A program made the translations under genes and the position numbers. This document shows, in pieces, positions 12,849-32,122 of a DNA stretch of 32,558 nt. The stretch's first letter is position 1, and every line of letters starts with the position of its first letter. Source of the stretch: Pseudomonadota bacterium (lineage in GTDB: Bacteria > Pseudomonadota > Gammaproteobacteria > Burkholderiales > Burkholderiaceae_C); assembly GCA_021846965.1 (NCBI GenBank), contig JAJZWA010000043.1:1-32558 (forward strand), in the 5' to 3' direction. The notes beneath the pieces are model-generated. The model saw nothing but the letters and a program-made list of their open reading frames with translations. It had not been told where the DNA came from and did not search any database.

Positions 12849-13787
12849 GTGTCCGAGTCCGAAACCAGCCTGCGTGTCGCGATCGTCGTTCCGGTGCGCA
12901 ACGGAGGCGAGGTCTGGCGTCGCGCCGCCGAGGCCATCCTGCAGCAGATCCGCCGGCCCGATCGCGTGCTGGTGGTGGACTCGGAGTCTTCCGACGGAAG
13001 CGACGCGCTCGCGCTGCGCTGCGGCTTCGAGCTCAGGCGCATCCTGGTGCGGGATTTCGACCACGGGGGCACGCGGCGCCTGGCGGCCGAGCAATGTGCC
13101 GATTGCGATGTGCTGGTCTACCTCACCCATGACGCGGTGCTGGCCGATGCGGGAGCGCTGGGCCGCCTGCTGCGCGCCTTCGACGACCCGCGGGTGGCGG
13201 TGGCCTACGGACGCCAGCTCCCGCGGCCGGGCGCGGGGCCCATCGAGGCGCATGCGCGCTTGTTCAATTACCCGCCGGCCTCCGCCCGGCGCAGCCTGGC
13301 GGATGCCGCCCGCCTGGGCATGAAGGCGGCTTTCAGCTCCGATTCCTTCTGCGCCTACCGCCGCAGCGCGCTCGAGATGGTGGGGAATTTCCCGGCGCGC
13401 GCGATCGGCTCCGAGGACATGGTGGTGGCGGCTCGCGTGCTGCAGCATGGCCTGACCGTCGCCTATGTGGCCGATGCCTGTGTGTTCCATTCCCATGCCT
13501 ACACGGCCCTGCAGGAGTTGCGGCGCTATTTCGACATTGGCGTGCTGCATGCCCAGGAGTCCTGGCTGCTGCGCGAGCTGGGAGCTCCGGAAGGCGAGGG
13601 GCTGCGCTTCGTGCTGTCGGAGGCGCGCTACCTGCTGGCCCGCGCCCCCTGTCTGCTCCCGGTGGCGGCCCTGCGCACGGCGGGCAAGCTCCTCGGCTAC
13701 CGCCTGGGGCGGCGCCACGCCGACCTGTCCGAGGCCTGGCGCCTGCGCCTGAGCATGCACCGGGGCTTCTGGAGTCGGGGCCGGTAG
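12849..13787 (+). CDS. GT2 glycosyltransferase, rhamnosyltransferase-like
   Basis: This 312-residue GT-A enzyme begins 'VAIVVPVRNGGEVW', then 'VVDSESSDGS' for nucleotide binding and 'FDHGGTRRLAAE' followed by 'YLTHDAVLADAGAL'; the last two are characteristic of bacterial rhamnosyltransferases. 'SSDSFCAYRRSAL', 'GSEDMVVAARVL' and 'FHSHAYTALQELRRYFDIGV' continue the match and include the probable catalytic 'SED'. It would add a sugar (L- or D-rhamnose is the usual guess) to the lipid-linked glycan at the inner face of the membrane. The start is GTG, 3 bases after the preceding stop, implying coupled translation with the initiating transferase. Donor specificity is not proven, and no dTDP- or GDP-rhamnose pathway is in the window apart from manC. 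Confidence 0.87.
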   Translation: MSESETSLRVAIVVPVRNGGEVWRRAAEAILQQIRRPDRVLVVDSESSDGSDALALRCGFELRRILVRDFDHGGTRRLAAEQCADCDVLVYLTHDAVLADAGALGRLLRAFDDPRVAVAYGRQLPRPGAGPIEAHARLFNYPPASARRSLADAARLGMKAAFSSDSFCAYRRSALEMVGNFPARAIGSEDMVVAARVLQHGLTVAYVADACVFHSHAYTALQELRRYFDIGVLHAQESWLLRELGAPEGEGLRFVLSEARYLLARAPCLLPVAALRTAGKLLGYRLGRRHADLSEAWRLRLSMHRGFWSRGR

Positions 13788-13833
13788 CAGGCGCTTGACG
13801 TACCCTTCACCTTCTTTGGACTGGAGCCCACCC

Positions 13834-15102
13834 TTGGCGCAACTGGAACCCCTGAGCGCGGACGCAAGGACCGGCGCATGCGGCGAGCGGCCGCCGCGCC
13901 AGAACCTGGTGGGTCCGGCCTTCGTGCTGCTGGCCTTCACCCTCAGCCTTCCCACCGCGACCGGATCGATCGCCTCGGTGCTGGCGCTGCTCGCCTGGGT
14001 CACCTCGGGAGGCTGGCGCTGCCAGTGGCAGCGTTGGCGCGCCAGTCCGAGCGCGATGTGGGCCGTCGCGCTGCTGGCCATGTTCCTGCTCGCCACCGCC
14101 TACGGCGAGGCGCCCCGCGCGGACGCCTGGGGCGTGATGGGCAAGTACGCCAAGCTGCTGTTCCTGCCGCTGACCCTGATGAGCCTGAGCGACCCGCGCT
14201 GGCGCGCTCGCGCGCTGCGCGCCTTCCTGGCGGGGGCGGTGCTGGCCTCGCTGCTTTCCTACGCGCGCTTCTTCGGGCTCGTGCCCGCGCGCCTGGCGCA
14301 GGGCATCGTGCAGGGCCACATCCACTTCGGCACCATCGAGGCCTTCGCCGCCTATGCCTTTGCGCGCATGGCCTTCGAGGCCGGGCGGCGGCGCTGGCTG
14401 TACGCGCTGCTGGCGGCGCTGCTGTGCGTGGACGTGATCTACGTGGGCATCGCGCGCACGGGCTATGTCGCGGTGCTCGCGCTGATCGTGCTGCTCGGTG
14501 CCCAGCGCCTGGGGGCGAAGGGCCTGTTGGCGGGGGCGGGCACGGCCTTGCTGCTCGCGGCCATCGCCTTCACCGCATTCCCCGTCGCGCGCATGCGCAT
14601 GGAGGAGGGCCTGCAGAACCTGCGTCAGTATCAACGCGTGGAGGCCACGCACCAGGGCTCGCTGCGCGAGAACTCCTGGGGCCTGCGCCTGCAATTCTGG
14701 CGCAACACCCTGCACATCATCGCGCGCCATCCCATCATCGGCAATGGAACGGGCAGCATGGTCGTGGAATACGCCCGCATCGCCCCGCACGACGTGGACA
14801 CCTCGAATCCCCACAATGAATACCTCAACACCACCGAGCAGACCGGTCTGATCGGCCTGTTCCTGCTGTTGGGGCTGGCGGCGGCGGCCTGGCGCGACGG
14901 CCTGCGCCTGGGCGCGCTCGACCGCGACTTCGCGCATGGCGTGCTGGTGACCATCGGCGTGGGCAGCCTGTTCAACTCCCTGCTGATGGACGTGAACGAG
15001 GGCAGGTTCTTCGTGGTGATGCTGGGTCTGTTGCTGTCGGCGGGCCTGCAGGCGGGTCGCCAGACGCCCGGCGGCGCCGGCCGGGCGCTCCCGCGGGCCT
15101 GA
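13834..15102 (+). CDS. O-antigen ligase family membrane protein (WaaL-like)
   Basis: This roughly 422-residue protein has about ten or more hydrophobic helices and one large periplasmic loop containing 'LQFWRNTLHIIARHPIIGNGTGSM' and 'SNPHNEYLNTTEQTGLIGL', the hallmark region of the Wzy_C/O-antigen ligase fold with its conserved His. It would join the finished polysaccharide to lipid A-core at the periplasmic face. There is no ATG at the beginning: TTG 13834 is chosen because GGAG (13823-13826) lies 7 bases upstream, and TTG 13795 would add 13 residues. The stop is 8 bases from the convergent manC stop. Polymerases share this fold, but the ABC exporter downstream makes a ligase more sensible than a Wzy polymerase. 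Confidence 0.87.
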   Translation: MAQLEPLSADARTGACGERPPRQNLVGPAFVLLAFTLSLPTATGSIASVLALLAWVTSGGWRCQWQRWRASPSAMWAVALLAMFLLATAYGEAPRADAWGVMGKYAKLLFLPLTLMSLSDPRWRARALRAFLAGAVLASLLSYARFFGLVPARLAQGIVQGHIHFGTIEAFAAYAFARMAFEAGRRRWLYALLAALLCVDVIYVGIARTGYVAVLALIVLLGAQRLGAKGLLAGAGTALLLAAIAFTAFPVARMRMEEGLQNLRQYQRVEATHQGSLRENSWGLRLQFWRNTLHIIARHPIIGNGTGSMVVEYARIAPHDVDTSNPHNEYLNTTEQTGLIGLFLLLGLAAAAWRDGLRLGALDRDFAHGVLVTIGVGSLFNSLLMDVNEGRFFVVMLGLLLSAGLQAGRQTPGGAGRALPRA

Positions 15103-16592: not shown

Positions 16593-16925
16593 GGAGGTTT
16601 CCGAAAGCTGTCTGGCGGCACTGTAGCGGAGCTCGCGGGAGGAACCGTCGGCGATCCGGCCCGGATGTCGACTCCGGGCGGGATCAGGCCGGAGGATTGC
16701 TCCGCGAGGCTCGGGGGGGCTGCTCAGCACCCTGGATGGCCGGACTATGCGTGTACCATTCCAGCGGTTACAGAATAGGACAGATCGCCACGTGTTCCGA
16801 GACGCGCCCGAGACGCGCGATGGGGTCGTCGGCAGGAACTGTCGCTCTTTTTCCGAGTTCCACCGTTATGAGGCGCGAAGGATCGACCGGATGCCATTGG
16901 AATGCAGTTTGAGGGACCTGAATTC
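16593..16925. other. Divergent intergenic region between manC and the novel sugar operon
   Basis: These 333 bases separate the divergent starts of manC and the SDR gene and should hold promoters for both. The part around 16741-16890 is visibly less GC-rich than the genes around it. I found no convincing -35/-10 pair, no strong inverted repeat and no credible small gene; open frames here look like shadows. GAGGGA at 16911-16916 is the probable ribosome binding site of the SDR gene. Confidence 0.55.
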
Positions 16926-17636
16926 GTGAGCACCATGCCGCACACACCAGCCTTGCTGCTGTTCGGCGGCACGGGCGCGATCGGCGGCGCGATCGCGCGA
17001 GCCTTCGACGCCTGGAACTGGCGCGTCGTGGTGGTCAGCCGCCGCGCGGACGCCGGGCACCTGGCCTGGGATCCGCTGGATGCGAGCGACCAGGCCGGTC
17101 GCGAGGCCGCCGCGGCCCAGGGTCCCTTCGATGCCGTATGCTGGGCGCAGGGCATGAACGCCAACGACAGCGTCTACGATGTCGATCTCGAGCTGCACGA
17201 GCGCATGTACCGCGCGAATTGTTCGTTCGTGCTGGCTTCGTTGCGCTTCCTGCTGGATCGAGGCCTGCTGTCCAAGCCGTCTCGCCTGTGCGTGATCAGC
17301 TCGATCTGGCAGGACATGGCCAGGCAGAACAAGCTTTCCTACTCCATGACCAAGGCCGCGCTGCGCGGCCTGGTCCTTTCGGCGGCGAACGACCTGGGGC
17401 GCGAGGGCCATCTGATCAACGCGGTGTTGCCGGGGGTGCTCGAAACGCCCATGACCCGCGCGAATCTCTCCCACGTCCAGATCGACAAGGTGACGTCGGG
17501 AACCCAGTTCGGCAGGCTGGCCGAGCTCGACGACGTGGCGCGCACCGTGCGCTTTCTCTGCTCGCCCGAGAACACCGGAGTGACCGGGCAATTCATCAAG
17601 GTCGACCTGGGTTTTTCCGATGTCCGAATCCTTTGA
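16926..17636 (+). CDS. SDR-family oxidoreductase, first gene of the unusual-sugar operon
   Basis: This 236-residue cytosolic NAD(P)-dependent enzyme has a nucleotide-binding motif 'LLFGGTGAIGGAIARAF', 'WAQGMN' in place of the usual NNAG, catalytic Ser in 'CVISSIW', 'YSMTK' (Tyr and Lys) and 'NAVLPGVLETPMTR'. The tail 'TGQFIKVDLGFSDVRIL' is the usual SDR C-terminal cofactor loop. GTG 16926 has GAGGGA 9 bases upstream; ATG 16902 and ATG 16935 are alternatives. It overlaps the cyclase-like gene by 17 bases. Its substrate is unknown; the position suggests oxidation or reduction of an intermediate made or used by the neighbouring cyclase homologue. Confidence 0.85.
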   Translation: MSTMPHTPALLLFGGTGAIGGAIARAFDAWNWRVVVVSRRADAGHLAWDPLDASDQAGREAAAAQGPFDAVCWAQGMNANDSVYDVDLELHERMYRANCSFVLASLRFLLDRGLLSKPSRLCVISSIWQDMARQNKLSYSMTKAALRGLVLSAANDLGREGHLINAVLPGVLETPMTRANLSHVQIDKVTSGTQFGRLAELDDVARTVRFLCSPENTGVTGQFIKVDLGFSDVRIL

Positions 17637-18708
17637 GGTGCACTCGTCGCTGCGGGACTACACGGTCGACGTGGGGGCCGGGCTGCTGGATGCGCTGCTG
17701 CGCGCCGAGCCCGCGCTGCATGTGGTGTGCGACCAGCAGATGCTCGCGCACTGGCCGAGCCTGGCGCGGCGGGCCGGCGTGATTCCCGTGCTCGCCGAAG
17801 AGGCGCGCAAGGATCTGGGCAGCGTGGCGCAGATCGTGGAGTCGCTGCGGCGGGCGGGAGCCACGCGTGGCAGCCGCATGCTGGCGGTCGGAGGCGGCGT
17901 GGTGCAGGACCTGGCCACGATGGCCTCGTCGATCTACATGCGGGGCATCGACTGGGTGTATTGTCCGACCACGCTTCTGGGGATGGTCGACTCGTGCCTG
18001 GGGGGCAAGTCCTCGATCAATGTCGGGGAATTCAAGAATATCGCGGGGAATTTCTACCCGCCGTCCCGGATTCTGATCGATCCGGTGTTTTGCCGGACCC
18101 TCCCCCGGGTGCAGCGCATCGCGGGCCTGTGCGAGGCGGCGAAGATCTGTTTCTGTTCGCCCGACGAGGCCTTCGAGGATTATCTGCGCCTGATGGCCGG
18201 CGTGGATGTGTTCGACGACCCGTCGGCCCTGGTCAGCCTGGTCTCCCTGAGCCTGCGGACCAAGAAGGTCTTTATCGAACAGGATGAGTTCGACCAGGGA
18301 ATTCGCCTGCTGCTCAATTTCGGCCACACCTTCGGCCACGCGCTGGAAGGGGCCAGCGGATTCGCCCTGAGCCACGGCGTTGCCGTGGGCGTGGGCATGC
18401 TGGCCGCCATCGATTTCGCCAGGCGCATCGGCCTGGCCGACGGCAGCGCCGGGCGCACGCTTGCGCTGCAGAGTCATGTGCGCGAACTGCTCGCGGGCGT
18501 TCCCGACCTGTCCCGCGTGCTCGGGGATGTCGATCCGGAGCAGGCCCTGCGCCGGTTCCAGTCGGACAAGAAGCACCAGCAGGGACGGTATGCTGTCATC
18601 GTGGTGAATCGCGAGGGTTTCGTGGAGCGCATCCAGTTGCCCGCGGACTCTGAAACCGCGGCGCATATACGTGGGACTTTTGGCGCAGTGAAAGAGCTTG
18701 TTGCATGA
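17620..18708 (+). CDS. 3-dehydroquinate-synthase-like sugar phosphate cyclase
   Basis: This 362-residue member of the AroB superfamily belongs to enzymes that use NAD and a metal to turn a phosphorylated sugar into a carbocycle. Motifs are 'GGGVVQDLA' (91-99), 'CPTTLLGMVDSCLGGKSSIN' (115-134), 'KNIAGNFY', the metal Glu in 'GLCEAAK' (E172), 'LNFGHTFGHALE' (H236) and 'SHGVAVGVGM' (H252), with 'SDKKHQQGRYAV' near the end. The Glu after HG in standard AroB is Val here (V254). Together with the gene context this argues against a shikimate-pathway role. The start lies 17 bases inside the SDR gene and the end overlaps the next gene (ATGA). The product could be a ring sugar or an acyclic rearranged intermediate; I know no characterised close relative. 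Confidence 0.88.
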   Translation: MSESFEVHSSLRDYTVDVGAGLLDALLRAEPALHVVCDQQMLAHWPSLARRAGVIPVLAEEARKDLGSVAQIVESLRRAGATRGSRMLAVGGGVVQDLATMASSIYMRGIDWVYCPTTLLGMVDSCLGGKSSINVGEFKNIAGNFYPPSRILIDPVFCRTLPRVQRIAGLCEAAKICFCSPDEAFEDYLRLMAGVDVFDDPSALVSLVSLSLRTKKVFIEQDEFDQGIRLLLNFGHTFGHALEGASGFALSHGVAVGVGMLAAIDFARRIGLADGSAGRTLALQSHVRELLAGVPDLSRVLGDVDPEQALRRFQSDKKHQQGRYAVIVVNREGFVERIQLPADSETAAHIRGTFGAVKELVA

Positions 18709-20465
18709 AATATAGCGATAAAATTGCAGACTGGTTGGTGGAGCTTGGTTATACCGACTGTTTTTTCGTGGGGGGCGGCAATATCATGCACCTCATTGAA
18801 AGTCTCAGCCGCCGCCTGCGCTGCCATGCGGTGATCCACGAGGTGGCGGCCGGCATCGCAGCCGAATACTTCAACGAGAGCTCCACGGGTCGCAAGGCGC
18901 TGGCCATGGTCACCGCCGGCCCGGGCCTGACCAATATCGTGACCGCGCTGGCGGGCGCCTACCTGGAAAGCCGCGAGCTGCTGGTGCTGGGCGGGCAGGT
19001 CAAGACCGCCGATCTGGCGCGCGGAGCCCTGCGCCAGCGTGGCATCCAGGAAATCGACGGCGTGAGCATCGCGCGCCCGGTCACGGTGGTGTCCCATCTG
19101 ATGGATGAACCCCTCGATGCCCAGGCCTTCTCGGCACTGGTGCGGCGAGGCAGCCAGGCGCGCAAGGGACCGGTGTTCCTGGAGATACCCCTGGACATCC
19201 AGGCTCGCGACGTGGATTTCGGCGATCTCGGGCCGCAATCCCCTCCCGCGGGGCGCGTGCACGTGGGTGCCGAGCAACTGGCACGCCTGGCCGGCATGAT
19301 CCGCGAGGCCGAGCGCCCCTTGCTGCTGCTGGGAGGAGGGGTCTCGCGAGAGGCCGCCGCGCAGATCCACGCCCGCCTCGACGCGATGGGCATTCCGGTG
19401 GCCACCACCTGGAACGGCGCCGATCGCGTGGACGCGGCGCACCCTTTGTACATGGGGCGCCCCAACACCTGGGGCCAGCGCAGCGCGAACCTGATCCTGC
19501 AGCAATCGGACCTGCTGGTCGCGCTGGGCACCCGCCTGGGCATGCAGCAGACGGGCTTCAACTGGCAGGCCTTCGTGCCCTCGGGCAAGGTCGTGCAGGT
19601 CGACATCGATGCGGCGGAGCTCTCCAAGGGCCATCCGCGGGTGGATCTGGCCCTGCATGGCGATGCCGACGAGGTGCTTCGCTACCTTGCGGCGCAGGAC
19701 CTGGGGCGGCATGAGGCCTGGCAGGGCTACGCGCGGGGCGTGCGCGAGGCCGTGCCCTTGATCGAATCCGTCAACAAGACCCGGCCCGGCTATTTTTCAC
19801 CCTACGCCTTCGTCGATCGGCTGGCCGCGCTGTGCCGGGACGACGACGTCGTGATTCCCTGCAGCAGCGGGGGAGCCTTCACGGTGATGATGCAGGTGTT
19901 CTCGCAGAAGCGGGGGCAGATCCTGGTGACCGACAAGGGCCTGGCCGCGATGGGCTATGGACTGTCGGGCGCCATCGGAGCGGCCTTCGCGCATCCCGAT
20001 CGACGCGTGGTGCTGGTCGAGGGCGATGGCGGCTTCGCGCAGAATCTGCAGGAGATCGGGACTGCCGCGATCAATGGCCTGCGCGTGAAGATGTTCGTGT
20101 TCGACGATTCCGGCTACGCGTCGATCCGCATGACCCAGCGCAGCTATTTCGGGGGTCGCTATGTCGGATGCGATCGCTCGACGGGCCTGGGGCTTCCGGA
20201 CTGGGAGAAGCTGTTCCCGGTCTGGGGGGTTCCGGTGATGCGCCTGGTCCCCGGGGCCGAGCAGACCGCGGAGTTCCAGCAATTGTTCGAATCCGACGGG
20301 CCCGCTGCCTTCGTGGTGTCCATCGATCCCGAGCAGACCTATTTCCCCAAGATCAGCAGCCGGGTCACCGAGAGCGGAGCGATGGAGTCCAACCCTCTGC
20401 ATCGCATGAGTCCAGACCTGGACCCGGAACTCGCCGAGCGAGTGTCCGCCTACCTGCGGCCCTGA
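18705..20465 (+). CDS. Thiamine-diphosphate enzyme of the acetolactate-synthase/YerE type
   Basis: This 586-residue three-domain ThDP enzyme has the catalytic Glu in 'VIHEVAAGIAAEYF' (E46), a central Rossmann domain ('LLLLGGGVSREAA'), and the cofactor site 'VEGDGGFAQNLQEIGTAA' (GDG 440-442) with 'VFDDSGYASIRMTQRSYFGG' where most relatives have NN. Enzymes of this family decarboxylate a 2-keto acid, often pyruvate, and pass the two-carbon unit to an acceptor; YerE does this on a CDP-4-keto-3,6-dideoxyhexose in yersiniose synthesis. The CDP-deoxyhexose genes at 28.9-32.1 kb make a similar use plausible. The start overlaps the preceding stop (ATGA). Housekeeping acetolactate synthase is unlikely: there is no small subunit, and the gene lies in a sugar operon. 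The first 100 bases are distinctly AT-rich. Confidence 0.88.
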   Translation: MKYSDKIADWLVELGYTDCFFVGGGNIMHLIESLSRRLRCHAVIHEVAAGIAAEYFNESSTGRKALAMVTAGPGLTNIVTALAGAYLESRELLVLGGQVKTADLARGALRQRGIQEIDGVSIARPVTVVSHLMDEPLDAQAFSALVRRGSQARKGPVFLEIPLDIQARDVDFGDLGPQSPPAGRVHVGAEQLARLAGMIREAERPLLLLGGGVSREAAAQIHARLDAMGIPVATTWNGADRVDAAHPLYMGRPNTWGQRSANLILQQSDLLVALGTRLGMQQTGFNWQAFVPSGKVVQVDIDAAELSKGHPRVDLALHGDADEVLRYLAAQDLGRHEAWQGYARGVREAVPLIESVNKTRPGYFSPYAFVDRLAALCRDDDVVIPCSSGGAFTVMMQVFSQKRGQILVTDKGLAAMGYGLSGAIGAAFAHPDRRVVLVEGDGGFAQNLQEIGTAAINGLRVKMFVFDDSGYASIRMTQRSYFGGRYVGCDRSTGLGLPDWEKLFPVWGVPVMRLVPGAEQTAEFQQLFESDGPAAFVVSIDPEQTYFPKISSRVTESGAMESNPLHRMSPDLDPELAERVSAYLRP

Positions 20466-20507
20466 TCCAGAGCCTGCCACTTCCGACCTACTCCAAGGAG
20501 CAAGAAC

Positions 20508-21311
20508 ATGAATTCTCATGAGCGCAAGATGCTCGAGATTCTCAAGCGCGGCCGCGATGAATTCGGCTATGTGGCTGTGAAGGCTGAATTCGAGGCCGAG
20601 GGCACGCGTACCGACGAACTGCTGCGCCTGATCGAGATCGCGCGCCGCGCCGATCTCAAGATCGGCCTGAAGATCGGCGGCTGCGAGGCCATGCGCGACC
20701 TGATCGAGAGCAAGCAGATCGGTGTCGACTACATCATCGCGCCGATGATCGAGACGCCCTATGCGCTGAGCAAGTTCATCGACGCCAAGAACAAGATCTA
20801 CACCCGCGAGGAACAGGAGGACACGCAGTTCCTGTTCAACCTGGAGACCCTCGCGGCCTTCCATCATCTGCAGGAGATGGCCGATGCCGCGAAGGCGCCG
20901 GAAGGCCTGGCGGGCCTGGTGTTCGGGCGGGTCGACTTCTCGCTGTCCCACGGCTGGTCGCGCGACGCGATCAACAGCCCCGAGGTGACGGACTACTGCG
21001 TCAAGGCCGCGCAGGCCTGCAAGGACAAGGGGCTGGACCTGGTGGTCGGTGGCGGCGTCTCCATGGACGCGCTGCCCGCGCTGCGCAGCATCGCCCAGGT
21101 GCACCTGACCCGCTTCGAGACCCGCAAGGTCATCTTCTCCGCGAATGCGCTGCGCGGCAGCGACGCCGAGAAGGGCCTGCTGCAGGCGGTGCATTTCGAA
21201 CTTCTGTGGCTGCTCAACAAGCGCGAGTACTACGGCGCCATCCAGCGCGAGGACGCCAAGCGCATCGAGATGCTGGAAAGCCGCTGGCACGTGCTGTCGG
21301 ACAAGCAGTAA
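20508..21311 (+). CDS. HpcH/HpaI (citrate-lyase-beta-like) family aldolase
   Basis: This 267-residue cytosolic TIM-barrel protein of the pyruvate-aldolase family adds or removes pyruvate, oxaloacetate or acetyl units. Visible landmarks are '[20 protein letters not shown]', '[19 protein letters not shown]', the likely metal ligands E113 ('FNLETLAAF') and D143 ('FGRVDFS'), and '[15 protein letters not shown]'. It has the strongest ribosome binding site in the operon (AAGGAG, 20495-20500, 7 bases before ATG). A class II-type aldolase beside an AroB homologue is notable, since AroB acts on a 2-keto-3-deoxy acid of the kind such aldolases form. Its true substrate is unknown. Confidence 0.85.
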
Positions 21312-21314
21312 CTC

Positions 21315-22349
21315 GTGGTCACCCGACGCGACCCCGCCTTGCCCGAGCCCGCACTCGGCCCCGACGCCAGGATCCTGATCACCGGAGGCACGGGGTTTTT
21401 CGGGCGCGCGCTGCTGCGCCACTGGCAGGCAGGCGAGATCGCGGGCGACGCGCCCCCCAGGGTGCTGTTGCTCAGCCGGGAGCCGGAGCGTTTTCGCGAG
21501 GCCTATCCCGACCTGGCGCAACGGCCCTGGGTCCAGTGCTGGCGTGGGGACATCCTGTCCCCCGGATCGCTTCCGCAGGAAGGCGACTTCACCCATGTAC
21601 TGCACGCCGCGGCCGACTCGACCCTGGGCCCCAGTCTGCCCGCGCTGCTGCGCCATGATCAGATCGTGCAGGGCACGCGCAACCTGCTCGACTGGGCGTT
21701 GGCCCGCGCGGTGCCGCGGTTCCTGCTGACCAGTTCCGGGGGCGCCTACGGGCCGCAGCCCGAGACCATGCCCTTCCTCGAGGAAGACTACACGGGAATG
21801 CCCGATCCGATGCGCGCGGCCAATGTCTATGGCGTGGCCAAGCGTGCCGCGGAGCATCTGTGCGCCCTGTACCAGGATCGCTGGGGACTGGAGGTGGTGG
21901 TCGCGCGCTGCTTCGCCTTCGTGGGCGAGGACCTTCCGCTGGACGTGCACTTCGCCATTGGCAATTTCGTGCGGGACGCGCTGTTCGGCGACAGCATCGA
22001 GGTGGCCGGCGACGGCAGCGCGCTTCGTTCCTACCTGGATCAGCGCGACCTCGCGCATTGGCTGGTCACCCTCATGGTGCAAGGTCGGGCGGGTCGGGCC
22101 TACAACGTGGGGTCGGATCAGGCCCTGTCGATCGGCGAACTCGCGCATCTCGTACGCGATCTGCTGGCCCCCGGCAAGGCCGTGAACATCCACGGTCGCG
22201 CCCCGGCTGCCGGAGCGAAGAGCCGATACGTGCCCTCGATCCGGCGGGCCGCGGAAGAACTCGGGCTGGGCGTGACGGTGCCGCTGGACCAGGCGATTCG
22301 TGACATGGGTGCGCGGCTGCGCGCCAAGGCCGCGCGCGCGCCCGGCTGA
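21315..22349 (+). CDS. NAD-dependent epimerase/dehydratase family protein, possible CDP-sugar 4-ketoreductase
   Basis: This 344-residue extended-SDR sugar-nucleotide enzyme has the cofactor motif 'ILITGGTGFFGRALL' (20-34), catalytic Ser in 'LLTSSGGAYG' (S140/S141) and 'YGVAK' (Y172, K176). 'FVGEDLPLDVHFAIGNFVRDAL', 'RSYLDQRDLAHWL' and 'AYNVGSDQALSIGELA' are common in the generic epimerase group of O-antigen clusters. Related proteins reduce or epimerise 4-keto sugars, as in abequose or yersiniose synthesis, and this one could finish the sugar. The start is GTG 21315, 3 bases after the aldolase stop, with no good ribosome binding site, so coupling is likely. Dehydratase activity is less likely since RfbG supplies that step. 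Confidence 0.87.
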   Translation: MVTRRDPALPEPALGPDARILITGGTGFFGRALLRHWQAGEIAGDAPPRVLLLSREPERFREAYPDLAQRPWVQCWRGDILSPGSLPQEGDFTHVLHAAADSTLGPSLPALLRHDQIVQGTRNLLDWALARAVPRFLLTSSGGAYGPQPETMPFLEEDYTGMPDPMRAANVYGVAKRAAEHLCALYQDRWGLEVVVARCFAFVGEDLPLDVHFAIGNFVRDALFGDSIEVAGDGSALRSYLDQRDLAHWLVTLMVQGRAGRAYNVGSDQALSIGELAHLVRDLLAPGKAVNIHGRAPAAGAKSRYVPSIRRAAEELGLGVTVPLDQAIRDMGARLRAKAARAPG

Positions 22350-22413
22350 ATTCCGGGGCAGGGTGCAGCAACGGGCGGCGACGCGTCGGCGCTGCCAGCC
22401 CCCATTTCCATCG

Positions 22414-23562
22414 ATGTCCATGAACCACACCACACGCTGCGAAGACGCCGGCGCCGCGCAACCGCCATGGCCGGGGGCCGAGGGCCTGGCCGCGTCCACC
22501 GCGCTGCTGCTGCCACGCAAGCGCCACCCCTACTACATCGTGGCACCCACCTACGTGCGCACGTCGGCGGGAATCCGGGTCCTGCACCTGTTGTGCAACG
22601 CGCTGAACCGACTCGGCGAGAATGCCTACCTGGTGATCCATCCCTACATGGGGGACCCGCACAAGGGGGTGCATCCCTATCTGGACACCCCCTTGCTGGA
22701 TGCGCAGCGCATGCTGCAGCACCACGAGGACGGCCTCTGTCCGATCACGATCTACCCCGAGACGGTGCGTGGCAACCCCTTCGAGGCACCCCTGGTGGTG
22801 CGCTATCTGCTGAACTTTCCCGGGCTGCTCGGAGGTGACGAGCATTACCCCGCGGACGAAGTGATGTGGGCCTACAGCGAAGCCATCGCGCAGGAGGTGG
22901 ATGCGAGCTGCGAGATCCTGTTCTTCCCGGTGTCCGACCCGGAGCAGTTCACCCCCTTTCCCGCTCAGCCGCGCAAGGGCAGCTGCTTCTATGGGGCGAA
23001 GTACCAGGCGGTACATGGGGGCGAGTTGTTCGAGGTCACCCGCGACAGCGTGGAGATCACGCGGGACCTGCCGGACTCCCCGACACCGGCGCAGATCGCC
23101 GATCTGTTCCGGCGCTCGGAAGTGTTCTATTGCTACGAGAATTCGGCGCTGGCGATCGAGGCTCTGTTGTGTGAATGCCCGGTGGTCTTTCTCCCCAATC
23201 CCTACCTCGAGCGAATGATCGGCTTCGGGGAACTGGGAACGGATGGCATTGCCTGGGGCACCGATCCGGATCAACTGGAGCGGGCGCGGGCCACCGTGCG
23301 CCAGGCGCGCCGCAACTATCTGCGTCTCTACGATGTGCTGGAACAGCGCCTGCACGCCCTGATCGCGCAGACCCAGGCGCTGGCAGCCGCCAGAAGCTAC
23401 CCGAGGCTCATGCACATCGAGTCGATCCAGGAGCCGGGAATGGCCATGCGCCTGGCCAGCAACTGGGAGGTGCTGCGACATGCGGCGCAAGACCAGGGCG
23501 TGTCGCGGACCTTGCTGAGGGTGCTGAGCTATGTGCGTCGCAAGGGCCTGAAACTGAAATGA
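22414..23562 (+). CDS. Putative GT-B glycosyltransferase
   Basis: This 382-residue protein has no signal peptide. An N-terminal half with 'YYIVAPTYVRTSAGIRVLHLLCNALNRLGENAYLV' looks like the acceptor domain of GT-B enzymes. The C-terminal half has 'CYENSALAIEALLCECPVVFLPNPYL', which matches the donor-sugar motif E-x7-E of retaining GT-B transferases. The sequence does not match a named family that I know. ATG 22414 (or ATG 22420) is chosen because the upstream frame overlaps the epimerase gene and is basic and low in complexity; no clear ribosome binding site is seen. It probably adds one residue to the glycan. Confidence 0.75.
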   Translation: MSMNHTTRCEDAGAAQPPWPGAEGLAASTALLLPRKRHPYYIVAPTYVRTSAGIRVLHLLCNALNRLGENAYLVIHPYMGDPHKGVHPYLDTPLLDAQRMLQHHEDGLCPITIYPETVRGNPFEAPLVVRYLLNFPGLLGGDEHYPADEVMWAYSEAIAQEVDASCEILFFPVSDPEQFTPFPAQPRKGSCFYGAKYQAVHGGELFEVTRDSVEITRDLPDSPTPAQIADLFRRSEVFYCYENSALAIEALLCECPVVFLPNPYLERMIGFGELGTDGIAWGTDPDQLERARATVRQARRNYLRLYDVLEQRLHALIAQTQALAAARSYPRLMHIESIQEPGMAMRLASNWEVLRHAAQDQGVSRTLLRVLSYVRRKGLKLK

Positions 23563-23617: not shown

Positions 23618-26221
23618 ATGACCACCTTGACCATCGTGATCCCGACCCGGAATCGGGCGGACCTCCTCAAGCGTGCGGTCGAATCCCTGGTGGACTCCGC
23701 CTCGAGGGTGCCCGACGACATCGAGATCCTGGTGTGCGACAACCAGTCGACCGATGCCACGCCGGAGCTATGCGCCCAGCTGATGGCGAGCCACCCTCAG
23801 GTGCGCTATGCCCGCCATGCGCAGGCGGCCACCAGTGCCGAGCAGAGTGCCTACATGGGTCTGCGCACCCTGATGCAGCAGGGGCGAAGCGAGTATTTCT
23901 GGATTTTCGGCGACGACGATCTGGCCTATCCGGACGCCTGCGCGGAGATTCTCCGGGCCCTGCGGGACGGTCACGACTTCGTGCTCGCGGGGCTGGAAGT
24001 TGGCGATCCCTTCGCTCCCGGCGATGCCGACACGAGTTCCGGGGGCGCGCCCGCCCGCGGGTACTACCGCGTGACCGCGCCCTATGTGCGTTATCCGAGC
24101 GGCGCGGAACTGTTCGCCGATTTCGGGCTGGTGACCGCCACGACCACGCTGTCCTGCCTTTGCGGCAGGCTTGCGCAGCTCGATTTCGAGGCATGGGCCC
24201 AGTTGCTGGACATCTCCCCGATCTACAGCCATTCGGCAGCGATGCTGCTGAGCTATCGGGATCGGCACGCGGCGGTCCTGGCCGGGGCCCAATTGCGCTA
24301 CACCCTCAACTCGGTGGCCAATGAGCTTTCCCGGCTGCGCGAGGCGGGCCTGACGTCTGCGAGGCCGAGCTACTGGCCCTACACGACGGGTCTGGTGCGC
24401 CAGCTTCGGTACCTGCTGGCGCGCATGCCGCGTGCGGCAGCCTTCTTCGACTCGGTGGAGGAGATCCACCTGTCCAAGGACAGCCTGAATCTCAAGCTCG
24501 GCACCCTGGCGGGCTTTCTGGTCGAAATGCACATGCGTCAGGCCAGGCTTCACGCGCAATCCGGCGAGAAGCTCGAAAGCCTGAGCCCGGAGATGATGGC
24601 CGAGCTGCGCGAGTTCCTGGGCGAATACCTGGAAGGCCATCGGCAGGCCGTGCTGCTCGAGCTGTGCTCCCGGCTCGAGCAGCATGCGCAGGCCTCCACG
24701 CAGGAGCTCGACGAACTCCTGCTCAGCCTCGACGAGCTGGAGATGGAAGAATTGCGCGGGCGCTTCGAGCGCTGTCTAGGGCCCGTGCTGACGGAGGCCT
24801 CGGGGCCGCTTGCGCACAAGCGCCTGCGCGGCATACGCGTGCCCGACCGCCCCGCGCGCCTGACGGTGGCCATCCCCACCTACAACCGCAGGGCCTCGGT
24901 GTTGCGCCAGTTGCGCGCGCTGGCCTCGCTGGGGGCGCTGGAGGACTCCGAGGTCGAGGTGCTGGTGGGTGACAATGCCAGCGACGACGGCACGCGCGAG
25001 GCCCTGGACGATTTCGCGCGGGACCATCCCCATGGCCTGCGCGTCGTGCACTACGCCGAGCATGTGGGCAGCGCGGAGGAGAACTGCGCACGACTGGTCC
25101 GCGACGCGGGCGGCTGCTACGTCTGGCTGCTCAGCGACGACGACGTGATCGTGCGACCCGCCTATGCGCGCCTGCGCGCATTGGTGGCTCCGGGCGAGGG
25201 CGAGTCCATGGCCGGCTTCGTGTTCGATACCGCGGCCGAGAAGGATGGCGAGCGCCTGGTGAATCCGCAGACCCACACCATGGACCAGGATCTGCACGGC
25301 GTGCTCGACGGCATCGAATCCGAGGGTAGGGTGGACTTTTCCGGCTTCATCGAGCGTCACGGTCTGTCGCAGTACGGGGCATTGATCTCCCGCTACGTGG
25401 TTCGCCGGGACCTGATCATCGGCGCCATCGACCCCTACCTGCCGATATCGTCCATCTACAGCCATGTATTCGGGCTGCTGGAGCGGTTGCGGGAAGAACC
25501 CGTCATGTTCGTGGCCGAAGCGCTGGTGTGGCGCCGCAGTTCAGCCGTCCTGGACCGCTTCGCGCGCATGGCGAAAGAGCGAGGCTGGTATTTCTACCGC
25601 CCCTGGACCCGGGGTCTCGTGGACCTCGCGCAGGCCTTCGAGCGACGCAGCGGAATGTCGCCGGGCTGGCTGCGCCATGTGCGGGAACGCGGGAACGACG
25701 GGGTGACCTACGGCCTGGTGGAGGACATGGTTCACCAGCTCGGCCGGCAACTGGGCTACGCCTTGCTGCAACATGATCCGGCCGAGCTCCTGCCGGCCGA
25801 GGATCGCGAACGGATCCTGCGCTATCTTCGTGCCTGCGGCTTGCACGAGGAGGGCCTGGCGAGATTCGAGCAGGTCGCGACCCTGGTTGCCGAGGCCGTG
25901 GAAAAGGCCCGGGGCGTCGGGGACTATCGCGTCGACGTGGAGGAATTCGCGGAATTGTGGCTTCAGGTGCGGGCGCTGCCCTCCCGGATGCTTGTCGCGG
26001 TGAGTCCGACGCCCTCGGCTGCGCCGCAGCTCGCGCAGGGAGTGCTCGAGCCCGCGCCTTCCTCGAAGTGGCTGCTGCTGCCGGCCAGGTACATCGCGGC
26101 CCGCCTCGACCGCATGCAGGTGGAGCATCCCGAGCGTCACCAACGCTTCGTGGCCTGGAAAAACCGCCATGCCGTGTTGCGCGTGCTTTCGCGCCAGATC
26201 ATGAGGATGGGGCGCGGGTAG
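23618..26221 (+). CDS. Two-domain GT2 glycosyltransferase
   Basis: This 867-residue cytosolic protein has two complete GT-A modules. The first (about residues 1-250) has 'TIVIPTRNRADLL', 'VCDNQSTDAT' and 'FGDDDL' (D99-D101). The second (about 410-640) has 'TVAIPTYNRRASVL', 'VGDNASDDGT' and 'LSDDDV' (D507-D509). Between them lies a helical, Glu- and Leu-rich linker (about 290-400). Both modules have the metal-binding DDD and both resemble the abequosyltransferase-like GT2 at 27907. A good ribosome binding site (AGGAGA, 7 bases before ATG 23618) supports the start. Two active centres in one chain could make a repeating disaccharide or add two different sugars; which is not known. Confidence 0.88.
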   Translation: MTTLTIVIPTRNRADLLKRAVESLVDSASRVPDDIEILVCDNQSTDATPELCAQLMASHPQVRYARHAQAATSAEQSAYMGLRTLMQQGRSEYFWIFGDDDLAYPDACAEILRALRDGHDFVLAGLEVGDPFAPGDADTSSGGAPARGYYRVTAPYVRYPSGAELFADFGLVTATTTLSCLCGRLAQLDFEAWAQLLDISPIYSHSAAMLLSYRDRHAAVLAGAQLRYTLNSVANELSRLREAGLTSARPSYWPYTTGLVRQLRYLLARMPRAAAFFDSVEEIHLSKDSLNLKLGTLAGFLVEMHMRQARLHAQSGEKLESLSPEMMAELREFLGEYLEGHRQAVLLELCSRLEQHAQASTQELDELLLSLDELEMEELRGRFERCLGPVLTEASGPLAHKRLRGIRVPDRPARLTVAIPTYNRRASVLRQLRALASLGALEDSEVEVLVGDNASDDGTREALDDFARDHPHGLRVVHYAEHVGSAEENCARLVRDAGGCYVWLLSDDDVIVRPAYARLRALVAPGEGESMAGFVFDTAAEKDGERLVNPQTHTMDQDLHGVLDGIESEGRVDFSGFIERHGLSQYGALISRYVVRRDLIIGAIDPYLPISSIYSHVFGLLERLREEPVMFVAEALVWRRSSAVLDRFARMAKERGWYFYRPWTRGLVDLAQAFERRSGMSPGWLRHVRERGNDGVTYGLVEDMVHQLGRQLGYALLQHDPAELLPAEDRERILRYLRACGLHEEGLARFEQVATLVAEAVEKARGVGDYRVDVEEFAELWLQVRALPSRMLVAVSPTPSAAPQLAQGVLEPAPSSKWLLLPARYIAARLDRMQVEHPERHQRFVAWKNRHAVLRVLSRQIMRMGRG

Positions 26222-26271
26222 GCCTCGCCATCCAGGCTAACATCCTTCATTTTCCTGTTTTCAATAGACCC

Positions 26272-27906: not shown

Positions 27907-28935
27907 TCAGCGGCCCAGCAGCTTGTCCCGCAGGAAATACAGGCCTCGCATCAGGTCTCCCGATGCGATGCGCCCGACGGCGGTGGCGGCCATGCCCCAC
28001 GCGATGCCCGCGGGGCGGGGCAGCGTGAAGATCGGATCCACCAGGGCCCAGTAGCGCAGGCGCCCGCGGTAGGCGCTGCGAAAGCGCTCGCGCGCGGCCT
28101 GGAGGTCGACGCTCGGACGCATGCGCTGGAGCAGCACCTGCTGCGGCAGGTACTGGGTCAGCATGCGCCGCTCCAGTGCGCTGCGCACGGCGGGATCCAG
28201 TCCCTGGCGTTCGTGCTCCTCGAGGATCGCGCGCAGGTTGCTCACGAAGACCTTGGAGAAGTCGTAACCGCCCCCGTTGTTCTTGCGGTAGGCCAGCCCG
28301 TAGCGCCGGTCCCGGATCAGCCGCCCGGGCCGGCGAGCGGCCAGCAGGTACAGATTCACGTGCACCAGGTTGCTGCCGCAAAAGCTCTCGGCGTCCACCC
28401 CGGCGCAGGCCTCGCGGTCGTAGACGATGGCCGAAAGCAGCGTGATCTGGGCTCCCACGTGGCGCAGGAAATCGCGGGCCGTGGCGTCGACCCGCCAGGT
28501 GTCGCGGCTGTAGGGAAGCTCGGCTCGCGGATCCTTCAGGAACCCGAAGGGTCGCAGGTGCAGCAGCACGACATCGCGCGGCTCGAGGAAGTCCAGCAGG
28601 CGGCGCAGGCAGCCGTGCAGCGGCAGATCGTCATCGCCCAGGATCCAGACATAACGCCCGCGTGCCAGGTTGTGGCAGGCGGCCACGTTGCGGTCCGATC
28701 CGAGGTTCTCGGCGTGGCGCACATGGCGGATCGGCAAGCCGGGGCGCTGCGCGGCGGCCACGACCTGCGGGGTGTCGTCCTCGGCGTGGTTGTCGCACAC
28801 CAGAAGCTCGATGGCCTCCGGCGGCAGTTCGGCGCGTTGCCGCTGCAGTTCCTGCAGCAGTTCCTCGAGGAAACGTGCGCGATTCCACGTGGGAATCGCG
28901 ATGGTCAGCAGCGGCGCAGGCGCAGGCTCACTCAA
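27907..28935 (-). CDS. GT2 glycosyltransferase, abequosyltransferase (RfbV)-like
   Basis: This 342-residue GT-A enzyme has 'TIAIPTWNRARFL', 'VCDNHAEDDT', 'NLGSDRN' and 'WILGDDDLPLHG' (D101-D103). The overall pattern resembles the Salmonella RfbV/WbaV family, which transfers a 3,6-dideoxyhexose from its CDP form. It is the last gene of the rfbF-rfbG-rfbH operon, which fits a transferase for the CDP-sugar made there. No ATG is near the start: TTG 28935 begins the recognisable domain and lies 9 bases after the rfbH stop. The C-terminal 80 residues are basic with a hydrophobic stretch ('IAWGMAATAVG'), consistent with membrane association. Confidence 0.88.
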   Translation of the reverse strand: MSEPAPAPLLTIAIPTWNRARFLEELLQELQRQRAELPPEAIELLVCDNHAEDDTPQVVAAAQRPGLPIRHVRHAENLGSDRNVAACHNLARGRYVWILGDDDLPLHGCLRRLLDFLEPRDVVLLHLRPFGFLKDPRAELPYSRDTWRVDATARDFLRHVGAQITLLSAIVYDREACAGVDAESFCGSNLVHVNLYLLAARRPGRLIRDRRYGLAYRKNNGGGYDFSKVFVSNLRAILEEHERQGLDPAVRSALERRMLTQYLPQQVLLQRMRPSVDLQAARERFRSAYRGRLRYWALVDPIFTLPRPAGIAWGMAATAVGRIASGDLMRGLYFLRDKLLGR

Positions 28936-28944: not shown

Positions 28945-30294
28945 TCAGTCGAAGCGCAGGCCGAGGAAGGTCTCGATGCTGGCGGCCACATGTTCCAGCA
29001 TCGGCTCGGTGAGTCCGGGGTACACGCCGACCCAGAAGGTCTGGTTCATGATGGTGTCGGTGTTGTCCAGCGGCGAGGCCACGCGCACGTTGCGGCCCGC
29101 CATGTAGGGCTGGCGCAGCAGGTTGCCGGCGAACAGCAGGCGCGTGCCCACCTTCTGCTGGTCCAGGTAGGTCAGCAGGTCCACGCGCGACACCGGCGCG
29201 TTGTCGCGCAGGGTCATGGGGAAGCCGAACCACGAGGGCTCCGAGCCCGGTGTCGCGTGCGGCAGGATCAGGAACTCCTCGCAGGAGCGCAGGCGCTCGT
29301 GCAGCCAGCGGAAATTGGCGCGTCGGGCGGCGATGAACTCCTCCACGCGATCCATCTGCGCCAGCGCGCAGGCGGCCTGCATGTCGGTGATCTTGAGGTT
29401 GTAGCCCAGGTGCGAGTAGGTGTACTTGTGGTCGTAGCCGTAGGGCAGGTCGCCCAGCTTCCAGCAAAAGCGCTTGCCGCAGGTGTTGTCCTTGCCCGGC
29501 TGGCAATAGCAGTCGCGCCCCCAGTCGCGGAACGAGTCCATGATCAGCTTGAGCTCGTCGTTGTTGGTGAACACCGCGCCGCCTTCGCCCATCGTGATGT
29601 GGTGGGCGGGGTAGAAGCTCAGGGTCCCGATGTCCCCGAAGGTGCCCACCTTGCGGCCCTGGAAGGTCGCTCCCAGGGCGTCGCAGCAATCCTCGATCAG
29701 CCACAGCCCATGCTTGCGGCACAGCGCGGTGACCACCTCCAGGTTGTAGGGGTTGCCCAGGGTATGGGCCAGCATGATGGCCTTGGTCCTGGGCGAGATC
29801 GCGGCCTCGATCAACTCGGCGCGCACGTTGTAGGTGCCCAGCTCCACGTCCACCAGCACCGGCACCGCGCCGAATTGCAGGATGGGGTTCACCGTGGTGG
29901 GAAAGCCCGCCGCCACGCCGATCACCTCGTCGCCCGGGCGGATCGCCCGATCGCCCAGCTTGGGGGAGGTCAGCGCCGAGAAGGCCACCAGGTTGGCGGA
30001 GGAGCCGGAGTTCACGGTGGAGACGTGGCGCACGCCCAGGAACTCGGCCAGGCGCGCCTCGAACAGGTCGTTGAAGCGCCCCGTGGTCAGCCAGCCGTCC
30101 AGCGAGGCCTCGACCATGTTGCGCAGCTCGGCGGCCCCGATCACCTTGCCCGAGGGCGGGACCACCGCCTGGCCCGGCGTGAAGCTGCGCGGCGCGAATT
30201 CCAGCTCGGCGTAGCGGTCGACCAGTTGCAGGATTTCCTTGCGCAGGCGCTGCTTGTCGCCTTGCACGATCTCGACCGGACTCAGCTTGTCCAT
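28945..30294 (-). CDS. rfbH: CDP-4-dehydro-6-deoxyglucose 3-dehydrase (E1)
   Basis: This 449-residue pyridoxamine-phosphate and iron-sulfur enzyme removes the C3 hydroxyl of CDP-4-keto-6-deoxyglucose. The fold is the DegT aminotransferase type, but the PLP-binding Lys is replaced by His in '[14 protein letters not shown]' (H231 by my alignment), the hallmark of E1. The four cysteines C204, C262, C264 and C272 give exactly the C-X57-C-X1-C-X7-C spacing of the E1 [2Fe-2S] site. ATG 30294 is supported by GAGGAA 8 bases upstream and the gene overlaps rfbG by 13 bases. The electron-transfer reductase E3 that completes this reaction is not in the window. The product leads to 3,6-dideoxyhexoses or branched sugars such as yersiniose. 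Confidence 0.95.
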
Positions 30295-31370
30295 GTTTGG
30301 TATTCCTCGATTTGTCGTAGCGTGAACGCACGCATGTCGGTGCCGCGGGCCTGCTCGGCGTGCCATTGCACGATGCGGTCCAGCGCGGTGCCCAGATCCC
30401 AGCGCGGGCGCCAGCCCAGGCGGGCCCGGGCCTTGGAGCAGTCGAGCTTCAGCGACGCCGCCTCGTGCTGCTGGGCCTGGGCGTCGAGTTCCCAGGTCGC
30501 CCCGCCGGGCCATTTCGCGGCCAGTTGTTCCACCAGCCAGGCCACCGGGCGGGCATCGTCGTCGGCAGGGCCGAAATTCCAGCCCTCGGCAAGAGCCTCG
30601 CCACGCTCGAGCAGGCCGCGCGCCAGCACCAGGTACCCCGACAGCGGCTCCAGCACATGCTGCCACGGCCGCACGGCATGGGGGTGTCGGATGCGCACGG
30701 CGCGGCGCTCGCCGAAGGCGCGGATCATGTCGGGGATCAGGCGGTCCATCGCCCAGTCCCCGCCGCCGATCACGTTGCCCGCACGGGCCGAGGCCAGCGC
30801 CACCGCGCCTCCTTGCGCCGCGGGGCGGCTGAAGAAGGAACGGCGGTAGGCGGAGGTCACCAGCTCGGCGCAGCCCTTGCTGTTGCTGTAGGGGTCGAAG
30901 CCTCCCATGGGCTCGTTCTCACGATAGCCCCAGAGCCATTCCTGGTTCTCGTAGCACTTGTCGCTGGTGACCACCACGACCGCGCGCACCGAGGGGCAGT
31001 TGCGCACGGCTTCCAGCAGGTGCACCGTGCCCATCACGTTGGTCGAGTAGGTCTCCACCGGATGGGTGTACGAATACAGCACCAGCGGCTGCGCGGCCAT
31101 GTGGATCACCACCTCGGGCTCGTCGAGCCGCATCTGCGCCTGCAGGGTCGCGAGGTCGCGGATGTCCCCGATGGTCGAGCGCATTCCCCGGGCCACGCCG
31201 GCCTGCTCGAACAGGCTCGGGTGCGTGGGCGCCTCCAGCGCATAGCCGGAGACCTCCGCACCCAGCGCCTGCAGCCACAGGCTGAGCCAGGAACCCTTGA
31301 AACCGGTGTGCCCCGTGACGAAGACCTTGCGGCCTCGCCAGAACTCCGGGCTTACTTCCAGACTTTCCAC
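30282..31370 (-). CDS. rfbG: CDP-glucose 4,6-dehydratase
   Basis: This 362-residue NAD-dependent enzyme converts CDP-glucose to CDP-4-keto-6-deoxyglucose. It has the cofactor motif '[14 protein letters not shown]' (17-30), '[13 protein letters not shown]' (T135-K138) and 'YSNSK' (Y161, K165), plus the subfamily segments '[13 protein letters not shown]' and '[14 protein letters not shown]'. The Lys after Gly-Phe in the first motif distinguishes this family from dTDP-glucose dehydratases. The start is GTG 31370, 19 bases inside the end of rfbF, and the end overlaps rfbH, so the three genes are translationally coupled. Confidence 0.96.
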
Positions 31371-32122
31371 GGCGCGTTGCCGCTCGACCAGAGCGACTCC
31401 AGGTGGTTCTTGTCCCGCAGCGTGTCCATGGGCTGCCAGAAACCATGGTGGAAAAAGGCCTGCAACTTGCGCTCGATGGCCAGTTGCTCCAGGGGCGCGC
31501 GCTCCCAGGGCATGTCGTCGCCTTCGATGTAGTCGATCACCTTGGGCGACAGCACGAAAAATCCGCCGTTGATCCAGCCTGCCTCGCCATGGGGCTTTTC
31601 CAGGAAGCGCTGGACGGTGTTGCCCTGCAGATCGAGGGCGCCGAAGCGACCGGGCGGCTGGGTCGCCGTCATCGTGGCCAGGCCGCCGTGGCTGCGGTGG
31701 AAGGCGATGGAGGCGCTGATGTCGATGTCGCCCACGCCGTCGCCGTAGGTCATGCAGAAGTCCTCGTCCTTCACGTAGTCGGCCACGCGCTTGAGGCGTC
31801 CGCCGGTCTGCGTGGACTCGCCGGTGTCGACCAGGGTGACGCGCCAGGGCTCGGCCTTGCGCTGGTGCACCTCCATGCTGTTGCTGGCCATGTCGAAGGT
31901 CACGTCGGACATGTGCAGGAAGTAGTTGGCGAAATATTCCTTGATCACATATCCCTTGTAGCCACAGCAGATCACGAAATCATTCACGCCGTGGGCGGAA
32001 TAGATCTTCATGATGTGCCAGAGAATGGGCTTGCCCCCGATCTCGATCATGGGCTTGGGGCGTTGACTGGTTTCCTCGGAAATACGGGTTCCGAGGCCTC
32101 CGGCAAGTATGACCGCTTTCAT
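31352..32122 (-). CDS. rfbF: Glucose-1-phosphate cytidylyltransferase
   Basis: This 256-residue cytosolic enzyme makes CDP-glucose from CTP and glucose-1-phosphate. It begins '[18 protein letters not shown]' followed by '[18 protein letters not shown]', continues with '[13 protein letters not shown]' and 'YGDGVGDID' (metal-binding Asp) and ends '[20 protein letters not shown]', all typical, at the usual length of about 257 residues. ATG 32122 is the family start. It is the first gene of the - strand CDP-sugar operon. The 182 bases upstream hold two hairpins after the reductase gene and an AT-rich patch (about 32176-32206) where its promoter probably lies, though no firm -35/-10 pair could be set. 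Confidence 0.96.

Follow-up and report, generated by a model that had tools for sequence, protein, structure and literature searches.

The contig JAJZWA010000043.1 of the Burkholderiaceae_C assembly GCA_021846965.1 (32,558 nucleotides, referred to as the window) carries five consecutive genes for a short-chain dehydrogenase/reductase (SDR), a relative of 3-dehydroquinate synthase (DHQS, AroB), a thiamine diphosphate (ThDP) carboligase, an HpcH/HpaI-like aldolase and a protein of the NAD-dependent epimerase/dehydratase fold (Epi). With ddhABC in the same window, this locus probably makes a CDP-activated 3,6-dideoxyhexose bearing a long branch at C4, most likely caryophyllose, which is 3,6-dideoxy-4-C-[1,3,4,5-tetrahydroxyhexyl]-hexose, or one of its stereoisomers. 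A broader proposal, put forward a shade less firmly and only just on the favourable side of even, is that a DHQS relative has turned into a lyase that eliminates phosphate without cyclisation and, with the SDR as its partner, removes the terminal oxygen of a sugar acid. The two would form an exchangeable cassette that tailors long-branched surface sugars with HpcH and a YerE-like ThDP enzyme in at least five phyla, SDR-AroB giving a CH3 end and a HAD phosphatase a CH2OH end, with a NeuB-family synthase able to replace HpcH. Such a scheme offers a complete, testable route to a caryophyllose-type side chain and a reason for a ring-forming enzyme family to occur in polysaccharide loci. The presence of SDR-AroB or of HAD genes would then predict how the branch ends in Pseudomonadota, Acidobacteriota, Actinomycetota, Eremiobacterota and Cyanobacteriota, Prochlorococcus among them, and the biochemical question posed is that of phosphate elimination without ring closure by the AroB family.

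All five genes lie on the forward strand, in exactly the order and spacing first described in a sequence-only reading of this DNA, with overlaps of 17 and 4 bases followed by gaps of 42 and 3 bases. They comprise the SDR at 16902..17636 (alternative starts GTG at 16926 and ATG at 16935; Pfam adh_short_C2, 97.7 bits), the AroB-like gene at 17620..18708 (DHQ_synthase, 114.9 bits, and DHQS_C, 88.5 bits), the YerE-like ThDP carboligase at 18705..20465 (TPP_enzyme_N/M/C, 92/117/100 bits), the HpcH/HpaI-like class II pyruvate aldolase at 20508..21311 (HpcH_HpaI, 36.6 bits) and Epi at 21315..22349 (Epimerase, 120.9 bits). Every match exceeds its Pfam cut-off, which bears out the domain names proposed in that reading, and the SDR translation contains YSMTK and VISS, which we take to be the motifs expected of this family. 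Three pathway partners were overlooked at that stage, namely ddhC-ddhB-ddhA at 28945-32122 on the reverse strand: ddhC/rfbH (CDP-4-keto-6-deoxyglucose 3-dehydrase, 28945..30294, start set at a Met; NF011936, 743.5 bits against a cut-off of 423), ddhB/rfbG (CDP-glucose 4,6-dehydratase, 30282..31370; TIGR02622, 497.5 bits against 278) and ddhA/rfbF (glucose-1-phosphate cytidylyltransferase, 31352..32122; TIGR02623, 475.8 bits against 300). They were found through clustering of open reading frames over related loci, in which the three families are common to 55-57 loci. With all three over their curated cut-offs, the source of the acceptor for a YerE-like pathway is present in the window.

The ThDP protein is nearer to a YerE-like enzyme than to the acetolactate synthases in a PDB sequence search, its closest match being 8rph (284 bits) and the next best an acetolactate synthase (227 bits). 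The entry 8rph is JanthE, a YerE-like enzyme of aldehyde-ketone coupling that also takes 4-hydroxy-2-oxovalerate with benzaldehyde, as described in excerpts of PMC12188165. Excerpts of PMC12247030 give CDP-3,6-dideoxy-4-keto-glucose as the acceptor on which YerE forms the branch of yersiniose A, and report that hydroxylated longer 2-keto acids are preferred by ErwE and by MMAR_2332, the ThDP enzyme of caryophyllose. Since the ddhABC product, CDP-4-keto-3,6-dideoxyglucose, is the YerE acceptor, it fits a YerE-like enzyme encoded in the same window, and the YerE-type coupling to a CDP-4-keto-3,6-dideoxyhexose suggested by the sequence-only reading is thereby supported.

The families recur together well beyond this contig, although HpcH of the window type is rare (8/398 genomes of a phylum sample, the window's own included). 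A total of 85 HpcH loci were tabulated, consisting of the best 80 of a named-genome scan, hence a lower bound, plus six further loci and the window, less two duplicates. ThDP is found in 75 of them and at least one ddh gene in 64, and SDR, AroB and HpcH stand together in 38 (referred to as pair loci), where the SDR adjoins the AroB-like gene on the same strand without exception. ThDP accompanies 35 of these 38, some ddh gene 31 and all three ddh genes 21, and the Epi family or a second such family (Epi2) is present in 35. HpcH is likewise accompanied by ThDP in 40 of the 47 loci without the pair. Two loci hold the SDR only (L068, L093) and one AroB only (L082), with contig ends close by in all three. 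A Thiomonas metagenome-assembled genome (MAG; L054) has the run SDR-AroB-ThDP-HpcH, with proteins 92-98% identical to those of the window, before its contig ends; it is a near relative of the window and not an independent case. The co-occurrence check proposed earlier thus favours a single pathway within a polysaccharide locus, as the families do sit together in loci of several phyla, and the five genes probably form one pathway.

No HAD phosphatase (of cluster 14 or homologous to it) occurs at a distance of up to 1.5 kb from HpcH or ThDP in the 38 pair loci, and 23 of the 47 pairless ones have one there (Fisher p 5e-8, uncorrected for relatedness). The contrast persists among loci with at least 4.5 kb on both sides, where the counts are 0/27 and 20/33, and a NagD-like HAD is present in four more pairless loci (L044, L045, L046, L081). 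Mapped onto the HpcH tree, the presence of HAD (27 rows, including four with a NagD-like protein) requires at least nine gains or losses on well-supported branches; two Prochlorococcus loci, L098 with the pair and L108 with HAD, are sisters at 100/71, and the acidobacterial HAD locus L067 stands beside pair loci. Carriers of the pair include Sphingomonas vulcanisoli, Pararobbsia silviterrae and Granulicella sp. dw_53, and Novosphingobium rosa is a carrier of the HAD type. When 22 genomes with pairless loci were searched whole, two (L059, L157) carried an AroB-like gene at a greater distance on the contig of the locus, in 19 a single aroB-like match is presumably the housekeeping gene, and a small genome gave no match. 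The natural reading of this mutual exclusivity and repeated switching is that HpcH makes an acid phosphate, which loses its phosphate by hydrolysis (HAD) or by elimination (SDR-AroB).

The AroB-like protein itself resembles AroB in its active-site residues. All 15 tested active-site residues, with numbering and roles that we take to be those of DHQS, are kept in 39/39 module copies, including K250, R264, N268, H275 and K356. It differs from AroB in that its clade is separate, the HGE motif is lost, an SDR is paired with it, and a second aroB-type gene is present in the window's genome (contig C110). The Glu of HGE, after the zinc His, is kept in 14/14 aroB rows and gives way to I, V, L or A in the module copies. 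The residues K R N H at positions 250, 264, 268 and 275 also set the module apart from two annotated sedoheptulose 7-phosphate (SH7P) cyclases, which have M, K or S, D and P there. In these two cyclases and in a Nostoc protein (annotated as 3-dehydroquinate synthase and called DDGS-like from a neighbouring methyltransferase), all five named residues are changed, save K356 in one cyclase; a Gloeothece homologue has four of the five changed and keeps H275.

Neither available family model captures the protein at its cut-off. Its nearest NCBIfam is TIGR04425, an uncharacterised AroB-related putative phospholyase (262.3 bits, cut-off 400), ahead of the aroB model TIGR01357 (233.8 bits, cut-off 305). 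On a midpoint-rooted tree, 37/39 module copies form one clade, L069 falls among TIGR04425 members, six mycobacterial copies group with L086, and all of these stand apart from 14 aroB and four SH7P-cyclase-type proteins (99/96). As these copies fall in several AroB clades, the acquisition of SDR-AroB by HpcH clusters was probably not a single event. TIGR04425 members share with the window protein the same deep clade under this rooting, an SDR neighbour and the Q96/C126 and HG-aliphatic signatures; they differ from it in their other neighbours, and the window protein scores below their cut-off. A search with the TIGR04425 model matched 281/299 genomes because aroB also matches, and 4/299 passed the cut-off. 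The TIGR04425 AroB-like genes of L048-L051 also stand with an SDR, their scanned neighbours variously being a SIS isomerase, Gfo/Idh oxidoreductases, a 2-hydroxyacid dehydrogenase and a CTP_transf_3 cytidylyltransferase; these loci appear to represent another sugar pathway using the same pair.

The assignment of HpcH as a pyruvate-type aldolase, also made in the sequence-only reading, is supported by its Pfam match, its fold and two invariant acidic residues. E113 and D143 are present in 34/34 sequences and are likely metal ligands, as assigned by eye. An AlphaFold2 (AF2) model built from 34 sequences (pLDDT 93.9) has class II pyruvate aldolases and pyruvate kinases as its best PDB folds, with a TM score of ~0.6. 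In a plasmid collection, HpcH was found in three records; tblastn detected no SDR, AroB or ThDP in one of the two Novosphingobium humi records, and the Ilyobacter plasmid copy sits in an acid-catabolism context.

The route that we infer from these families, in all its substrates and reactions, would run as follows. DdhA, DdhB and DdhC would lead to CDP-4-keto-3,6-dideoxyglucose, and HpcH would condense pyruvate with a tetrose 4-phosphate, in all probability the D-erythrose compound, yielding a 3-deoxy-2-heptulosonate 7-phosphate like 3-deoxy-D-arabino-heptulosonate 7-phosphate (DAHP). The AroB-like enzyme would perform the first half of DHQS chemistry, in which C5 is oxidised, the C7 phosphate eliminated and C5 reduced again; the enolate would then be protonated instead of attacking C2, so that no ring forms and a 6-keto-7-deoxy acid results. 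Reduction of the C6 ketone by the SDR would give 3,7-dideoxy-2-heptulosonate, which the ThDP enzyme would decarboxylate, attaching the remaining six carbons at C4 of the CDP-sugar. Finally, Epi would reduce the new branch ketone, a role that we presume to be like that of YerF. With phosphate elimination, all five enzymes find a place.

Caryophyllose is the known sugar to which this route points. Its branch is D-altro-1,3,4,5-tetrahydroxyhexyl, according to excerpts of PMC5706390. Read from the hexose, this is C1' OH, C2' H2, C3'-C5' OH and C6' H3, a pattern from which the ThDP donor before decarboxylation would be 3,7-dideoxy-2-heptulosonate. The published D-altro chain would require a D-ribo acid, the C4 epimer of DAHP, and the need for this isomer would explain a dedicated aldolase and lyase. 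The sugar had been considered possibly undescribed in the sequence-only reading; the probable product is one already described. No route to the caryophyllose side chain was found in the openly accessible literature seen in part, and no AroB-like enzyme assigned to a branched sugar in literature consulted mostly as listings.

The mycobacterial relatives suggest a link between the module and this sugar. The set comprised 346 genomes of the genus to which genome G732 belongs, and the many PPE genes of G732 identify this genus as presumably Mycobacterium. The ThDP gene is present at 54-57% identity in 11 of them, and a 36-38% relative in five more. Its 11 neighbourhoods all include ddhA, ddhC and a glycosyltransferase, with ddhB in ten, and ddh-GT-ThDP-HpcH-SDR-AroB occur together in five (L152-L155, L162). 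SDR-AroB stands without HpcH in L158, and HpcH without a nearby pair in L156, L157 and L159; L157 has SDR-AroB-FGGY ~18 kb away, and in L156 a HAD phosphatase follows HpcH. In L160 and L161, a NeuB-family synthase adjoins ThDP instead of HpcH, with a Methyltransf_23 gene and no SDR-AroB. Gastriose carries a methylated branch, and these two loci might make a sugar of that kind. An FGGY kinase follows AroB in 7/7 mycobacterial copies, the distant one of L157 included. The ThDP match of L162 stops early and its FGGY matches come in two pieces, so these genes may be broken or misassembled. The pair locus of Bradyrhizobium canariense (L083) has a 29%-identical FGGY relative immediately upstream of ddhA, at 6696-8027 on the reverse strand.

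One of these mycobacterial loci, in genome G1074, appears to be a Mycobacterium marinum-like lipooligosaccharide (LOS) locus. The next genes are pks, AMP-binding, MmpL and condensation (PapA-like), and a DegT aminotransferase stands on the other side, presumably at the position of MMAR_2320. The same order of pks to condensation genes is given for MMAR_2340 to 2343 in excerpts of PMC4403928 and PMC13354803, and MMAR_2333 is a glycosyltransferase next to the ThDP gene MMAR_2332 (excerpts of PMC12247030 and PMC4403928). If ThDP is 2332 and the glycosyltransferase 2333, HpcH would be MMAR_2331, the SDR 2330 and the AroB-like gene 2329. According to excerpts of PMC5706390, a LOS-II intermediate lacking the terminal caryophyllose builds up in an MMAR_2331 mutant, and the gene was tied to synthesis or transfer of this sugar. 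Apart from that mutant, no annotation of MMAR_2329-2331 was found in the M. marinum and M. kansasii LOS literature seen in part, and that literature assigns no HpcH, SDR or AroB to the side chain. The M. marinum caryophyllose pathway (MMAR_2331-2333) thus resembles the window in ddhABC, the YerE-like ThDP enzyme, HpcH, SDR and AroB-like genes of the mycobacterial loci, with the G1074 order fitting the published numbering; it differs in the added FGGY kinase and in the AroB clade.

Several observations weigh against this interpretation. Ring closure is generally regarded as nearly spontaneous in DHQS chemistry and would have to be prevented in a non-cyclising enzyme; the only hint of such a block is the replacement of HGE by HG-aliphatic, which TIGR04425 members also have. 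The mycobacterial AroB-like copies lie outside the window's main clade, which leaves gene context as the basis for transferring function, and the identity of the G1074 locus is suggested by gene order. For HpcH, a sequence search of the PDB gave no match; by eye, a Lys seems to occupy the HpaI Arg position and the His pair is not evident, these being, as we take it, the pyruvate-binding Arg and the catalytic His. The 1.5-kb limit was chosen after the HAD matches were seen, and one pair locus (L066), the only one with a HAD match at any distance, has a weak match 2.6 kb from ThDP. Furthermore, 13 well-flanked pairless loci have neither the pair nor a near HAD. Of these, L059 carries the pair at a greater distance on its contig, a NagD-like HAD is nearby in L045 and L081, and L073 and L107 have a HAD ~3 kb off, but the rest fit neither explanation. 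Finally, some ThDP matches among the 75 reach no more than 27-37% identity, ThDP is missing from the stretch examined in three loci with the pair (L065, L069, L118), and L158 has pair and ThDP but no HpcH.

Among the alternatives, the likeliest keeps the functions proposed for SDR, AroB and HpcH but assumes another chain length or stereochemistry, and hence a related new long-branched sugar in place of caryophyllose. The separate clades of the window and mycobacterial AroB-like proteins, an HpcH identity of ~60% between them and the two levels of ThDP identity found with the pair (33-36% and 48-100%) are in its favour; the identical enzyme families and ddhABC start argue for the same product, and it is considered unlikely.

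A cyclised branch is slightly less likely again. Here, the ThDP enzyme would couple a phosphorylated C7 donor first, after which the AroB-like enzyme would close a cyclohexane and the SDR reduce it, leaving a quinate-like ring on C4 of the hexose. AroB homologues of known function do cyclise, the ketone left over is no different, so that the SDR suits this version just as well, and the exclusivity of HAD and AroB is compatible with this order of events. K250 and R264, presumably the carboxylate ligands of DHQS, are nevertheless kept in 39/39 copies and changed in the tested SH7P cyclases, which suggests that the carboxylate is still present when AroB acts. In addition, the caryophyllose chain is acyclic with a CH3 end, and the loci matching its gene order carry SDR-AroB. 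The carbocyclic product entertained in the sequence-only reading is disfavoured: the AroB-like protein keeps 15/15 DHQS residues, the ThDP enzyme could not use an acid that had been cyclised as its donor, and an acyclic branch is made by the nearest loci whose product can be inferred. Bradyrhizose, offered there as a parallel, fares no better, as HpcH of the window type (the only query used) was found in 0/24 pufLM-bearing Bradyrhizobium genomes; in 24 other Bradyrhizobium genomes it was found in B. canariense, chosen for having it, and in one more at E 1.6e-4. Caryose (named in excerpts of PMC9671505) was also set aside. Judged on paper, it seems to have oxygenated ring carbons, a misfit with AroB chemistry.

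Least likely of all, and improbable, are two separate products, a free quinate-like carbocyclic acid from HpcH-AroB-SDR for another residue and a short-branched yersiniose-like sugar made from pyruvate by ThDP and ddhABC; the conserved DHQS residues and the pair without HpcH or ThDP in the examined stretch of L048-L051 would suit them, but the frequent company of HpcH and ThDP in pairless loci (40/47) indicates that HpcH serves ThDP rather than AroB alone, and near HAD and SDR-AroB exclude each other beside HpcH/ThDP.

Two further systems place the proposed caryophyllose-type pathway among its relatives. That of yersiniose A shares the CDP-4-keto-3,6-dideoxyglucose acceptor and a ThDP carboligase, and presumably also ddhABC and a YerF; as we take it, it uses a pyruvate donor for a two-carbon branch, with no HpcH and no SDR-AroB. 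The erwiniose pathway of Pectobacterium employs a YerE-like enzyme, ErwE, that uses 4-hydroxy-2-oxo acids, the kind made by an HpcH aldolase, and the erwiniose branch is not known to need phosphate removal.

Aside from these pathway genes, a family-2 glycosyltransferase adjoining ddhC (27907..28935, reverse strand; Pfam Glycos_transf_2, 70.1 bits) may be guessed to transfer the sugar, and a protein without Pfam family at 22300..23562 on the forward strand, common to nine other loci of the set (cluster 26), might at a guess be another glycosyltransferase. Within the tabulated loci, a distinct HpcH group (L044, L045, L046, L076, L079, L080, L091, L105, L107, L110) shares clusters 25 and 27, an epimerase-like protein and one resembling, by eye, a radical-SAM enzyme. 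Two MAGs labelled Bifidobacterium breve (L090, L094) have HpcH grouping with Solirubrobacterales loci, and their labels are probably wrong. Rfam gave no match at gathering score within the window. A heavy-metal P-type ATPase with three HMA stretches (1594-4479, forward) adjoins a MerR regulator (455-1639, forward) whose long N-terminal extension probably reflects a wrong start, and PAS-GGDEF-EAL (5282-8479, reverse) and PAS-GGDEF (8503-9858, forward) genes stand back to back ahead of the polysaccharide locus. The segments 11370-15102 and 25957-27876 encode a WcaJ-type initiating transferase (over cut-off), a Wzy_C protein and an ABC-2 permease with its ABC ATPase, a combination through which both export types may share one locus.

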